Shown: positions 14,665-29,250 of the stretch, piece by piece
Position numbering within the stretch: position 1 is the first letter of the stretch
How the letters are laid out: each line of letters starts with the position of its first letter
DNA from: Clostridia bacterium
GTDB taxonomy: Bacteria > Bacillota > Clostridia > Oscillospirales > CAG-272
Direction: 5' to 3'
Length of the DNA: 39,192 nucleotides
NCBI GenBank assembly: GCA_017466375.1
Contig: JAFTUH010000073.1
Span: 1 to 39,192 of the forward strand
Notes under the pieces: model-generated
Database searches by the model: none
Told to the model about the DNA's origin: nothing
Seen by the model: only the letters and a program-made list of their open reading frames with translations
Translations under genes and position numbers: made by a program

Positions 14665-14674
14665 AAGAAAAGCC
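14545..14674 (+). repeat. Direct repeat copy 1 (spoIVB 3' end plus 10 bases)
   Basis: This 130-bp stretch, from the catalytic-serine codon of spoIVB to the start of the terminator hairpin, recurs at 16969-17098 with about 10 mismatches. The two copies bracket the two XRE-TPR genes. Confidence 0.9.
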
Positions 14675-25798: not shown

Positions 25799-25828
25799 AA
25801 AAGGCAGTCGGAAATCCGGCTGCCTTAT
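25799..25828. terminator. Bidirectional hairpin terminator, ATPase / retron RT
   Basis: Stem AAGGCAG-T-CGG / CCG-G-CTGCCTT. It overlaps the stop codon of the minus-strand reverse transcriptase and has short T-rich tails on both strands. Confidence 0.75.
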
Positions 25829-26748
25829 TTCGCTTCTTTAAGAATACGGATGACTGCTTCTTTGTAGTCAAGAAATTTCGCATCATCGGGAGATATCTGG
25901 AGAACGTAGTTGATTCGTCCGAGCAATCTCATGAGATACTGCTTTTCAGAAAACGGGGACGCGGTTCTTCTAAGGTGATCCGCCACGCCGAATTTTCGGA
26001 GAAAAAACACTTCCTGCCGTATCTTCCGCTTGTAATCGGCGGAAATGTTGAGTTTCTCGTTGACGACCACACCCGTAACAATCTGCCGTCTGCAAAACGG
26101 AACGACGGCGGTCTTTTTTTCGTTAAGGAAAAATCCGCGCTTTCTGAGCTCGTCACGAATGAACGGAACGATCTCCCCTTCATCAAAATCGCCCGAGAAC
26201 GTCATATCGTCGCAGTAGCGTGTGTAGCTGACGCCAAGCGCGCGGCACCGTTTGCCGACAGCTTCATCAAAATCGCGCATGATGATATTCGTAATCATCG
26301 GCGAGGACGGCGCCCCCTGCGGAAGCACCTCTCCACAGTAGCAAAGCATAGCAAGAAGTACGCGGATTTTCTCTGCATACTTTTCTTTTGGAAACGCATT
26401 TTCTTTGACGGTGGAATACAGCACGCTGTCAAAAAAATGAGCAATATCCAGCTTGAGAAGCTTTGCTTTACCGACGTGCGGCACGGCATTTTTACAGACA
26501 CTTCCGGCAATACGATACGCAGTGGCGTAGGTCGAAATCGGCTCATAGGATAGCAGCTTATCCGCTATGGCGCGCTGGACGCGCGAGAGAATCTCATCCG
26601 GCACGTTGAGCGTTCGGAAGGAACCGTCACGCTTCGGAAGTTTAACCTCGCGATAGTGCGCGGAGAGATTGTTGCTGAGACCGTACAGTGTTTTCGCTGG
26701 AAAGCCGAGATCCGCCTCAACAGAGGATAGTTCTTTATAAACGATCAT
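25825..26748 (-). CDS. Retron-type reverse transcriptase
   Basis: A 307-aa reverse transcriptase expected to copy the upstream structured RNA into branched msDNA. The RT motifs are in order: LDIAHFFDSV (100-109, first catalytic Asp), QGAPSSP (144-150), the catalytic YCDD (178-181), and FFLNEKKT (207-213). Two retron hallmarks are present: NAVPH (87-91, NAxxH) and IVTGVVVN with VTG at 224-226. No maturase, endonuclease or fused effector domain is present, which argues against a group II intron or a fusion-type retron. The ATG at 26748 follows AGGGA eight bases upstream, and this ribosome site overlaps the a2 repeat of the RNA. It shares a promoter with that RNA. Confidence 0.95.
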   Translation of the reverse strand: MIVYKELSSVEADLGFPAKTLYGLSNNLSAHYREVKLPKRDGSFRTLNVPDEILSRVQRAIADKLLSYEPISTYATAYRIAGSVCKNAVPHVGKAKLLKLDIAHFFDSVLYSTVKENAFPKEKYAEKIRVLLAMLCYCGEVLPQGAPSSPMITNIIMRDFDEAVGKRCRALGVSYTRYCDDMTFSGDFDEGEIVPFIRDELRKRGFFLNEKKTAVVPFCRRQIVTGVVVNEKLNISADYKRKIRQEVFFLRKFGVADHLRRTASPFSEKQYLMRLLGRINYVLQISPDDAKFLDYKEAVIRILKEAK

Positions 26749-26755
26749 TTAACAT

Positions 26756-26947
26756 CCCTGAACAATACAAATTTGTATGCTGAAAAGCGCAGGTGTAATG
26801 AGGTACGTCGAAGGCGTACGTCACCATTCCGCAGGAATGGTTTTTACTCCGAGCATTTTCATCTGAGCGCAGCGAATACGGCAGGGTTACTGCCTCCGAC
26901 AGCGACTCGCTGCCGGCTTGAAAAATCAAGTGACACTATTGTTCGGG
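26756..26947 (-). ncRNA. Retron msr-msd structured RNA
   Basis: Directly upstream of the reverse transcriptase on the same strand. The ends form the a1/a2 pair: CCCGAACAATA (26947-26937) with TATTGTTCAGGG (26767-26756), 11 base pairs and one bulged A. A G at 26936, just after a1, is the candidate branch nucleotide. The msr part shows three hairpins: CTTGA/TCAAG (26930-26917), CCGGCAGCG/CGCTGTCGG (26916-26896) and GGCAG/CTGCC (26894-26880). The msd part (about 26880-26768) forms a long imperfect stem, with GTAT..GCTG at its left base pairing to CAGCATAC at its right. It holds an inner hairpin ACCATTCC/GGAATGGT (26841-26823). Exact RNA and cDNA ends are inferred. Confidence 0.85.
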
Positions 26948-26950
26948 AGT

Positions 26951-26979
26951 ATTATATCACAGGCGCGTACCGGTGTCAA
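26951..26979 (-). promoter_or_regulatory. Consensus sigma-A promoter of the retron
   Basis: Minus strand TTGACA (26974-26979), 17 bases, TATAAT (26951-26956), perfect in both boxes and with a TG extended -10. The predicted start (about 26944) falls in the a1 repeat, as expected for an msr transcript. Confidence 0.9.
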
Positions 26980-27027: not shown

Positions 27028-27270
27028 TTACTCCAGTCCAAGAAGCCAAGCAGGCGTCACTTTCAGAATCCGCGCAAGCTCTCTCAGCTCGTAATCCGCC
27101 ACAAATCTCGTACCGATTTCAATTCTTGATATGCTGTCACGTTCAAGAATAATCCCCGCTACCTGCATCTGTGCCGCGAGATCGCTCTGTGTCATTCTGT
27201 GACGGCACCTTGCCTCGTGTACGCGATCGCCGCAGATGTTCTTTTTGCCTTCGTAATCGTAAATTTTCAT
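27028..27270 (-). CDS. Small XRE/Cro-type helix-turn-helix protein
   Basis: An 80-aa single-domain DNA-binding protein: MKIYDYEGKKNICGDRVHEA, then MTQSDLAAQMQ and RDSISRIEIGTRFVADYELR, a common Firmicutes XRE type. The ATG at 27270 has GGAGAG five bases upstream and is preferred over the ATG four codons earlier. It lies just upstream of the retron on the same strand and divergent from the two-gene operon at 27410-29250. Two 25-bp palindromes in the gap are its likely operators. It could be the retron's regulator or accessory protein; small HTH partners are known for some retron types. It could equally be only the repressor of the divergent operon. Confidence 0.88.
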   Translation of the reverse strand: MKIYDYEGKKNICGDRVHEARCRHRMTQSDLAAQMQVAGIILERDSISRIEIGTRFVADYELRELARILKVTPAWLLGLE

Positions 27271-27291
27271 TAATCTCTCCAATATTTAGAT

Positions 27292-27316
27292 AAAGTTCGG
27301 AATTTATCTTGACTTT
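27292..27316. promoter_or_regulatory. Operator-like palindrome, site 1 (imperfect)
   Basis: A 25-bp site with outer arms AAAGT / ACTTT and the same central GAATTTATCT as site 2. It overlaps the -35 box of the plus-strand promoter (27309-27314). Confidence 0.6.
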
Positions 27317-27337
27317 AACATATTTTTGTCGTATAAT
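27309..27337 (+). promoter_or_regulatory. Promoter of the 203-aa/403-aa gene operon
   Basis: TTGACT (27309-27314), 17 bases, TATAAT (27332-27337). Its -35 box is covered by operator site 1 and its start region by site 2. Confidence 0.8.
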
Positions 27338-27345
27338 TGTGTTAA
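27317..27345 (-). promoter_or_regulatory. Divergent promoter of the small HTH gene
   Basis: Minus strand TTAACA (27340-27345), 17 bases, TATGTT (27317-27322). It overlaps the plus-strand promoter and lies between the two palindromes, so one bound protein could control both directions. Confidence 0.55.
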
Positions 27346-27368
27346 AGATCAGAATTTATCTGATCTTT
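27344..27368. promoter_or_regulatory. Operator-like palindrome, site 2 (perfect)
   Basis: Ten-base arms AAAGATCAGA and TCTGATCTTT, perfectly complementary, around a 5-base centre ATTTA. It begins 7 bases after the plus-strand -10 box. Its centre is 52 bp from that of site 1, about five helical turns, so cooperative binding on one face is possible. Confidence 0.75.
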
Positions 27369-27409: not shown

Positions 27410-28021
27410 ATGGGATTTTTTCGCTCACCAATGACGCTGATCGGACTTTCGATGCAACGAAAGAAAATCGTTGCGGAACTCGAAGGACACGAACCTGAAT
27501 GGTACTTTACCCAAGAAGGAGAACAAGCGTACAACAACGCAAAAACAAAAGCAGACAAGGTATTGTATTTTTTCGACTATCTGAACGCCGTTGCAGGCTC
27601 AAGAGGAAACAGAGACACTCTCTACCGTGCAGCGTACGTCATGGCAAACTCAATGGACAGCTCATCGCTGGATTTTTCGGGCTATCCGAACATTCTGAAG
27701 ACAGATAAGAACCCGCTCGTTCGCACTGCTGCACTAAAGCCCAGTGAGCCAGCTGTTTTCGGACTCATGAGTCTGTCAATTCTTCACGGCAGTGATAATG
27801 CCAGTGACTATCTTGAGGCAAAAGCCTGCCCGTACAAATTTCTCACATACTCCGCCGATGACGGCAGTATGTCCGATCTGTATAAAATCGAGAGAGATAT
27901 TATCGGTGCATTCTGTCTTGAAGAGGATGGAGAATACGTACCTCCCTATATGTATGATATTATCGACTCCGAAATCGGTCCCGATTCGGACGATGAAGAA
28001 GACTATAGCGACGATGAATAA
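27410..28021 (+). CDS. Hypothetical protein with acidic C-terminus (retron-adjacent operon, gene 1)
   Basis: A 203-aa protein I do not recognise. It has no signal peptide or convincing transmembrane segment. The N-terminus MGFFRSPMTLIGLSMQRKKI is basic and mildly amphipathic. The middle is mixed helical (ADKVLYFFDYLNAVAGSRGN). The last 20 residues are strongly acidic, with runs of Asp/Glu. The ATG at 27410 has AAGGA eight bases upstream. It is the first gene of a two-gene operon that starts from the HTH-controlled divergent promoter and ends 17 bases before the membrane coiled-coil gene. The acidic tail could mimic nucleic acid or hold a basic partner; that is speculation. Confidence 0.8.
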   Translation: MGFFRSPMTLIGLSMQRKKIVAELEGHEPEWYFTQEGEQAYNNAKTKADKVLYFFDYLNAVAGSRGNRDTLYRAAYVMANSMDSSSLDFSGYPNILKTDKNPLVRTAALKPSEPAVFGLMSLSILHGSDNASDYLEAKACPYKFLTYSADDGSMSDLYKIERDIIGAFCLEEDGEYVPPYMYDIIDSEIGPDSDDEEDYSDDE

Positions 28022-28038: not shown

Positions 28039-29250
28039 ATGAGTAACGATAAAATGAGTATGAGTGAAATAATTGACGAGCTTCATAACATCGATACACT
28101 GTTCAGTCGGTATCGGTCGATTGAGAGTTCGCTCAGTGATCTGTCTTACAAAATGGAGGAAGAAACCGATCAAGTCAGGCATGAACACGTAAAGCTTCTT
28201 ATGGAATTCGAGAACAAACAGCGTGAAAAAACGATTGCAAAGAAGCCTGCCCCGTCCCGCGCACTCCGCCTGGCACCGCCCACTCCTCCGCAAAAGCCTG
28301 AAATCTCCGATCCTGACAAAAACATTAAGAAAAGTGTAATAGCCGGCCTCGCATTTTGGGCTTGCATCGCTCTGGTCGTTTTCGGTCTGGCGATGGGCGG
28401 TACTTTTTACGGACAAATTCTCCAATTTGTTTGTGTCTTTCCCGCTGCAATTGCGGGTTTCATTTGGCATCAGTACTCCAACAAAGTTGATATGTTCTTA
28501 GCATGGCGGAATGAACAGAAAGAATACGATAAGAAGCAACAAGTATGGAAAGCTGAATTCGCAAAAAAAGCAACCGACGCAGACAACGCACGTCTTCTCG
28601 GTGAATTCCAAGCGTACGACGCATCCTTTTTGAAATTCGTTGAAATCTGCTCGAAGGAATTTGCCGATCAGTACACTGCCCGTCACGTCGCAGGACTTCA
28701 GCGCATCGCCGATAAATATGAAAAGAAAGAAGAAGAACTGCGCAGTCAAGCGGCAGAGGTGCGCGCCGAACTCGACAGTGTCACACTGATCCACAAGAAT
28801 TTGTTCGAGAACGCATGGAGAATCGCCGCCATCCTGGAAACCGGCCGTGCAGATACACTGAAGGAAGCAATCAATCTGGCGCTTGACGAGGCAAGAAAAG
28901 ACGAGGAAGAAGAAGCAAGACGCGAGGAAGCGCGTCAGCAGGAAGAAATCCTTGAGCGTCAGGCGGAAGAAAGCCGCAGACATAACGAGGCGATGCAGCG
29001 TGCAGCTGAGCGAGAAGCCGCCGATAGACGTGCGCATGACCGTGAGATGGAAAGAGCGGCGAAGGCACAGGCACGCGCTGCAGAGGCACAGGCACGGGAA
29101 GCGGCAAAGCAGACAGAAATGGCGAGAGAACAATCGAGTGCTGCAAGCAGAGCTGCAAGCGCCAGATGTACTAACTGTGCCAACTTCTCTAAATGTCCGC
29201 CAAATGCCAGAAAGAATTCCGGAAGTTGCGGAGCCTATAGGCCGATGTAA
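28039..29250 (+). CDS. Two-helix membrane protein with long coiled coil and C-terminal four-Cys motif (gene 2)
   Basis: A 403-aa protein of unrecognised family. In order: a helical N-terminus (1-65), a Pro-rich linker (70-90), two adjacent transmembrane helices (about 98-119 and 123-145) forming a hairpin, then a large predicted cytoplasmic region. That region holds charged coiled coil (about 225-245) and a long Glu/Arg/Ala-rich helix (about 285-372). It ends in Cys377-x2-Cys380-x5-Cys386-x10-Cys397 plus GAYRP, which looks like a zinc-binding knuckle. The ATG at 28039 has AGGAG nine bases upstream. A strong hairpin follows it. A two-helix membrane protein beside a retron recalls retrons with membrane effectors, but homology is not shown. 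Confidence 0.85.
   Translation: MSNDKMSMSEIIDELHNIDTLFSRYRSIESSLSDLSYKMEEETDQVRHEHVKLLMEFENKQREKTIAKKPAPSRALRLAPPTPPQKPEISDPDKNIKKSVIAGLAFWACIALVVFGLAMGGTFYGQILQFVCVFPAAIAGFIWHQYSNKVDMFLAWRNEQKEYDKKQQVWKAEFAKKATDADNARLLGEFQAYDASFLKFVEICSKEFADQYTARHVAGLQRIADKYEKKEEELRSQAAEVRAELDSVTLIHKNLFENAWRIAAILETGRADTLKEAINLALDEARKDEEEEARREEARQQEEILERQAEESRRHNEAMQRAAEREAADRRAHDREMERAAKAQARAAEAQAREAAKQTEMAREQSSAASRAASARCTNCANFSKCPPNARKNSGSCGAYRPM

Follow-up and report, generated by a model that had tools for sequence, protein, structure and literature searches.

Here, we show that a 69-bp element lying between the gene for an 80-aa HTH regulator and a divergent operon, o203-o403, is conserved in front of homologous HTH genes, to which it is linked one to one across genomes, and that the genes on its other side are diverse. 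The element was analysed within a 39,192-nucleotide stretch of clostridial DNA (the window), to which all coordinates refer. We consider it likely that the paired palindromes in the element are part of the operator of the HTH protein, and that regulator and operator together make a local self-regulating switch over the regulator's own gene and o203-o403.

The regulator and the architecture of the control region

The HTH gene lies on the minus strand (27028..27270) and encodes a single-domain protein of the XRE/434 type. Pfam HTH_31 and HTH_3 fall just below the gathering cut-off for this protein, and an AF2 model, for which an alignment of ten HTH homologues (A1) served as input, has five helices (pLDDT 90.3). 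The best PDB matches in Foldseek include P22 C2, 434, TP901-1 CI, C.AhdI, C.BclI and the domain of ICEBs1 ImmR (3jxb, 1sq8, 5a7l and 7t8i among them), and a sequence-profile search of the PDB agrees with this result. As modelled, the protein is a five-helix DNA-binding domain with the 434/P22-repressor-type fold, and it probably uses the conserved control region to regulate both its own gene and the neighbouring one.

Two related palindromes mark this region. Site 2 (27344..27368, without strand) is a perfect 10+5+10 palindrome, and site 1 (27292..27316, likewise strandless) is an imperfect one, symmetric at 7/10 positions; the 33-nt stretches around them are direct repeats, 76% identical and 52 bp apart. 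Both the perfection of site 2 and its relationship to site 1 had been described in an earlier, sequence-only reading of this DNA. Palindromy alone is weak evidence and only mildly surprising, because a perfect repeat with 10-bp arms and a loop of 0–8 arises by chance in 1.1% of resampled 139-bp intergenic regions, because the whole window holds 13 such repeats (loop 0–12) at seven places versus 0.8 expected, and because the six places other than site 2 resemble terminators or other hairpins. It is conservation, as judged from alignment, and not palindromy itself that gives these palindromes their significance. Site 1 is palindromic at 7/10 positions or more in 39 of 69 aligned copies of the element (control 0.3%). 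The outer, second arm of site 2 reaches this level in just 4 of the 69 (control 0.9%), the HTH-proximal half only being kept in homologues, so that the perfect form of site 2 is largely special to this genome. The idea of two equivalent 25-bp palindromes is therefore apt for the window and does not extend to the homologues in general. Conservation peaks from the inner half of site 2 through to the promoter-side half of site 1. Elsewhere in the window, three near-identical hairpins, AAAGCCAAGGT...ACCTTGGCTTT, at 14669, 15976 and 20491, are probably terminators with one common sequence.

A finer unit is apparent within the element: a 14-base half-site, TGTTAAAGATAAGA or a near variant of it, occurs three times with near-fixed spacing. 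Half-site h1 (TGTTAAAGATCAGA; 27340..27353, plus strand) is the inner half of site 2 and holds the weak −35 box of the HTH gene. Both h2 (TGTTAAAGTCAAGA on the minus strand; 27307..27320), which contains the divergent −35, and h3 (27288..27301, plus strand) belong to site 1, and h3 repeats h1 in direct orientation at a distance of 52 bp. A consensus scan predicts a strong plus-strand promoter for the divergent operon (27309..27337; TTGACT at 27309-27314, 17 bp, TATAAT at 27332-27337; 11/12), consistent with the rigid spacing between the element halves, and a weak minus-strand promoter for the HTH gene (27317..27345; TTAACA at 27345-27340, 17 bp, TATGTT at 27322-27317; 9/12). Each direction has its own −10 box, and the starts are predicted to lie about 34 bp apart. 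The promoters were first described as face-to-face, which is wrong: they are interleaved and back-to-back, pointing apart. The same scan agrees with the placement of site 1 over the plus −35 and of site 2 over the predicted plus start region.

The location of site 2 raises the possibility that its palindrome acts as RNA: at the very start of the o203-o403 mRNA, a stem-loop would stabilise or attenuate the message. With a start near 27344, as predicted, the transcript would open with the 10-bp stem; folding of the leader gives −14.8 kcal/mol (z −2.6); and the second arm is window-specific, hence dispensable for a general operator. However, it is the first arm that is kept, as DNA, while its pairing arm is missing in most homologues, and nothing in the window matches Rfam at gathering, the two sub-threshold hits having E values of 0.83 and 0.95. 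As an explanation for the palindromes we find the stem-loop unlikely, and a role of this kind can coexist with operator function of site 2.

Conservation of the element and its linkage to the HTH gene

Relatives' contigs were scanned with the A1 profile of the HTH protein, and the best 80 of 215 were taken as HTH loci; all are from MAGs labelled Clostridia, Eubacteriales, Oscillospiraceae, Ruminococcaceae/Ruminococcus or Lachnospiraceae. In a search with a fuzzy motif of two parts, the element (27288..27356, minus strand, in the window; HTH-sense consensus AATTCTTATCTTTAACACAATTATA-N4-AAAAATATGTTAAAGTCAAGATAAATTCTTATCTTTAACA) turns up upstream of the HTH gene in 74 of these 80 loci. The same search gives zero matches in 443 upstreams of other ORFs in the same 80 loci, and zero in 79 true upstreams read backwards. 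The two parts are separated by 33 bp in 69 of the 74 loci, by 32 in four and by 44 in one. As for the six misses, L078 comes without upstream sequence and is scored as a miss, L032 and L038 have the HTH gene behind another gene, and L043, L051 and L081 have degenerate or partial elements. Across 69 aligned copies, the element amounts to 95 bits over 69 bp, and its borders are sharp, the mean falling from 1.38 bits per base inside to 0.22 over 60 bp of upstream and 0.42 over 25 bp of downstream sequence. Three distant HTH homologues (L015, L022 and L023; 41–43% identity) have other repeated palindromes upstream (TGACATT..AATGTCA), which suggests that the layout is older than the sequence.

Linkage at the genome level was assessed with a sequence-only profile, R1, built from 69 of 75 copies, namely the window's and those of 68 loci with 33-bp spacing; L042, which is cut at a contig end, and the copies with 32- and 44-bp spacing are omitted, and G011 and G078 (32-bp spacing) thus lie outside the profile. 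In the window's own genome, R1 finds a single strong copy (E 8.8e-19), followed by a match at the same place on the opposite strand (3.2e-4) and then one at 0.01. A genome search for more copies of the site had been proposed as a check, and no second strong one emerged; a regulon in this genome is rejected on that ground. Among 146 relatives, six genomes have strong copies (E<=3e-13), all of which adjoin a close homologue of the HTH gene, and the next best match is at 1.3e-5. A larger set of 395 family genomes, which overlaps with the 80 loci, contains 56 copies at E<=1.8e-8, spread over 55 genomes; all but one of the 56 end 10–41 bp before an HTH homologue. Counted by genome, 54 have element and HTH gene, one has the element only, 12 have the HTH gene only and 328 have neither. 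The lone exception, G402, has a strong element followed by a frameshifted HTH reading frame. Matches to the training copies are partly by construction, because R1 was built from copies before HTH genes; no such bias affects the lack of strong copies at other places.

The HTH gene can exist without the element, since 13 of the 68 HTH places in the 395 genomes have no strong copy. Seven of these were inspected. The element is degenerate in G352, reduced to its right part in G234 and missing altogether in G041, G216, G289, G430 and G444, and in the last four the HTH gene is preceded by another gene, by a tRNA or by some other unrelated sequence. Similarly, the HTH copies of L029 and L032 follow another gene or a tRNA, and the element is missing. 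L032 and L038 are among the HTH genes closest to that of the window (90–91%), yet they have no element; in G216, the genome that matches, the HTH gene follows another small HTH-like gene.

The sequence-only reading would have been refuted had the sites not been kept upstream of homologous HTH genes, and they are kept, both among the 80 loci and among the strong copies of the 395 genomes. This conservation lends support to the view that the sites form a control element shared by the HTH gene and the divergent operon. From linkage and conservation, we infer that the HTH protein binds the palindromic operator. Moreover, because this genome has one strong copy and nearly all strong copies in the family stand before an HTH homologue, we favor a local self-regulating switch with no regulon. 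It could be argued that the element is conserved as a divergent promoter for some other, unlinked regulator, among whose targets the HTH gene is just one. Many of the conserved bases are indeed promoter hexamers, and XRE proteins are not always self-regulating. But strong copies lie directly before the HTH gene and only once in this genome, and 328 of the 395 genomes lack both partners, whereas an unlinked regulator would be expected to have sites at other genes. We regard this reading as improbable.

Variable cargo beyond the element

In 68 of the 74 loci, a divergent ORF begins no more than 260 nt from the strong promoter, with a median leader of 52 nt. Our cargo set comprises 64 proteins, o203 of the window and 63 of these 68 ORFs; four were dropped as doubtful (L050, L068, L095 and L109) and one as a near duplicate (L097, of L092), and the cargo ORFs of L034, L059 and L069 were given longer starts. 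The 64 proteins form 39 similarity clusters, the largest of which has 11. Among the Pfam families listed are trypsin-like proteases (6 members), SPFH/Band 7 proteins (4) and double zinc ribbons (4), and, more rarely, LRR surface-type repeats (2), one Imm_superinfect and one TIR_2; the cargo of L041 has an HtrA-like match. By a hydropathy rule, membrane or signal segments are present in 41 of 53 cargo proteins versus 188 of 496 background ORFs (Fisher p 4e-8), where the cargo is limited to proteins of at least 120 aa other than the window's (53 of 63) and the background consists of mechanically called ORFs, some of them surely spurious. For 9 of the 64 cargo proteins, the nearest HTH relative by DNA identity carries cargo of the same cluster. 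In ten loci, the HTH gene is followed by a spoIVB-like gene, yet the cargo is of several types; three of the ten spoIVB-like genes were scanned, and all three pass the TIGR02860 SpoIVB cut-off. The regulator-operator-promoter unit, then, appears constant at the sequence level, and the cargo variable, with mostly membrane or secreted proteins. The trypsin/HtrA-like proteases, SPFH proteins and surface proteins hint at envelope stress or surface variation.

The window's own cargo belongs to no family in Pfam, PADLOC or NCBIfam. The first gene, o203 (27410..28021, plus strand), encodes a helical protein with no known family or fold match; assignment of its function by fold was rejected, as the model (pLDDT 73.8) has no PDB match below E 2. 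The second, o403 (28039..29250, plus strand), encodes a protein with a hydrophobic segment, a coiled coil, a RADTLKEAINLA motif and a C-terminal Cys cluster, features read by eye from an alignment of the o403 family (A4), in which the motif and the Cys cluster are conserved. A near variant of the RADTLKEAINLA motif is also seen in the cargo of L076. Directly 3′ of o403 is the gene for the sporulation sigma factor SigG (NCBIfam PRK08215; 29417-30190, plus strand). Homologues of o403 occur in 21 of the 395 family genomes, and a homologue of o203 adjoins that of o403 in 11 of 19 loci (L113-L131) with flanks of only 1.5 kb. In L114, which is the same as locus L033, the pair is found with an HTH gene and element of the window type. 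In L113, L116 and L123, the pair is divergent to other small HTH genes, and the intergenic regions have repeats or palindromes of their own. It seems, then, that the regulator swaps cargo and the cargo swaps regulators, while the divergent layout stays constant.

Such exchange might mean that the element is chiefly a recombination site, and its conservation does end abruptly at the outer border, where the cargo changes. Against this, the bases that are conserved match promoter hexamers and half-sites, no recombinase was seen beside the HTH gene in the window, and homologous recombination through the conserved HTH-element block would give the same pattern. We give little credence to recombination as the chief role of the element.

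A broader proposal, built on the switch that we favor, can be made tentatively, and we hold it with less than even confidence. HTH gene, operator and strong outward promoter may constitute a standard 'expression socket' of Oscillospiraceae chromosomes, a self-silencing unit that accepts exchangeable envelope, secreted and possibly defence genes and thereby gives each strain its own surface trait under a common stress- or noise-triggered switch. Small self-regulating HTH repressors are otherwise common; what is unusual here is a 69-bp operator-promoter that is nearly unchanged in sequence in many genera, although the gene under its control varies. In titles and abstracts of the open-licence literature, we found nothing on such a regulator-operator-cargo unit. 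If the proposal is true, genomes of uncultured gut bacteria could be searched with the element as a tag for surface genes that vary and are under switch control, unannotated families such as o203-o403 included, and the element offers a simple, testable model for how regulation is passed to new cargo.

A putative local switch and its relation to known systems

How might the switch work? The HTH protein, probably as dimers, would bind site 1 as well as site 2, of which it would occupy the inner half in general and both arms in this genome, and it would do so on one face of the DNA, because 52 bp is about five helical turns. Once bound, it would exclude RNA polymerase from the weak promoter of its own gene and from the strong, divergent one of o203-o403 interleaved with it, keeping its own level low and the cargo silent. 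Should the repressor fall or be antagonised, the strong cargo promoter would fire, and polymerase at this promoter would also block the weak HTH promoter, favoring an all-or-none response. One regulator, one operator and one cargo would thus make up a local device. Alternatively, the HTH protein could activate its own promoter instead.

The HTH gene has a retron for a neighbor (25825-26979, minus strand), with an RT of the PADLOC RT_Ec107-like type (1e-120) and a perfect TTGACA-17-TATAAT promoter (26979-26951). An RNA between this promoter and the RT is structured (z −4.3 for the 212 nt folded); its long-range 5′/3′ helix resembles retron a1/a2 arms, and it has no Rfam match. One could suppose that the HTH gene is an accessory gene of the retron and that the palindromes control it, given that the RT is next on the same strand and that the HTH protein has a PADLOC HTH_VI hit, a weak one (E 0.0062). 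But an RT is present in 0 of the 80 HTH loci (the best 80 of 215), where a retron accessory would be expected to show constant linkage, and the retron has its own 12/12 promoter; the link is rejected as very improbable. The phage-repressor-like switch of the sequence-only reading, in the form of a prophage or ICE immunity switch of the CI/Cro or ImmR/ImmA type, draws on the fold (nearest to P22 C2, 434, TP901-1 CI and ImmR domains) and on the divergent overlapping promoters with several operators, and is the least probable reading of all, as no Cro-like antagonist or protease partner adjoins the HTH gene, no integrase or structural phage gene stood out in the ten flanking proteins scanned, the PHROG matches of the HTH protein are generic repressors, and the neighbors are chromosomal, with loci lying among genes such as spoIVB. 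A terminase-small-subunit hit (3e-6) in the window is incidental and stems from SigG's own HTH.

Restriction-modification C proteins and phage or ICE repressors are the nearest working analogues of the switch that we favor. Controller proteins such as C.AhdI, C.Esp1396I, C.Csp231I and Mollicutes HsdC are likewise single-domain XRE proteins of about 80 aa, and likewise regulate themselves from paired palindromic operators before their own gene, as the HTH protein would here. C.Csp231I binds two sites of the form CTAAG-N5-CTTAG, in which the 5-bp spacer is A-rich; the inter-site distance matters, and two dimers pair across a spacer in a length-sensitive way (PMC4321490). In HsdC, a GTGTTA core overlaps the −10 box (PMC5282649), and GTGTTA is also found here, at h1. 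The present system differs in that its operator spans divergent interleaved promoters, and in its half-sites and 52-bp spacing. Restriction-modification genes are absent from o203-o403 and from the 25 listed of 33 Pfam families in the 64 cargo proteins. Canonical AGTC/GACT C-box repeats were not found in the consensus, where AGTC is present once, inside h2, coinciding with the −35. Membership of the C-protein family therefore fails on cargo and C-box.

The phage repressors 434, P22 C2 and TP901-1 CI share the modelled fold (TM by query length 0.67–0.74) and also place several operators over divergent promoters. CI proteins have a C-terminal domain; here there is no second domain, antagonist gene or phage. 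No antagonist DNA-binding protein is encoded on the divergent side, o203 and o403 having no HTH family, and membership of the phage-switch class fails on antagonist and context. ICEBs1 ImmR/ImmA resembles our system in its divergent promoters with several repressor sites, six according to PMC8960796, and in the fold of its DNA-binding domain (7t8i). ImmR itself is a 127-aa protein cleaved by a linked protease, ImmA (PMC8960796). In contrast, the HTH gene of the window is flanked by o203-o403 and by the retron RT, and no protease partner or mobile element was seen.

CylR2 also belongs to this comparison: it is a small single-domain HTH regulator of a nearby enterococcal operon. It differs from the window's HTH protein in its cargo. 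PMC8960796 lists it as a structural relative of ImmR. For the promoters, a precedent is provided by the bidirectional promoters of E. coli studied by Warman, Grainger and colleagues, at which one polymerase keeps the other off the DNA that both would occupy (PMC12825309). As described there, a −10 element is common to both directions, whereas the two directions here have separate, interleaved −10 and −35 boxes. Polymerase competition at these promoters, together with dimer pairing by C.Csp231I, offers an analogy for the proposed mechanism.
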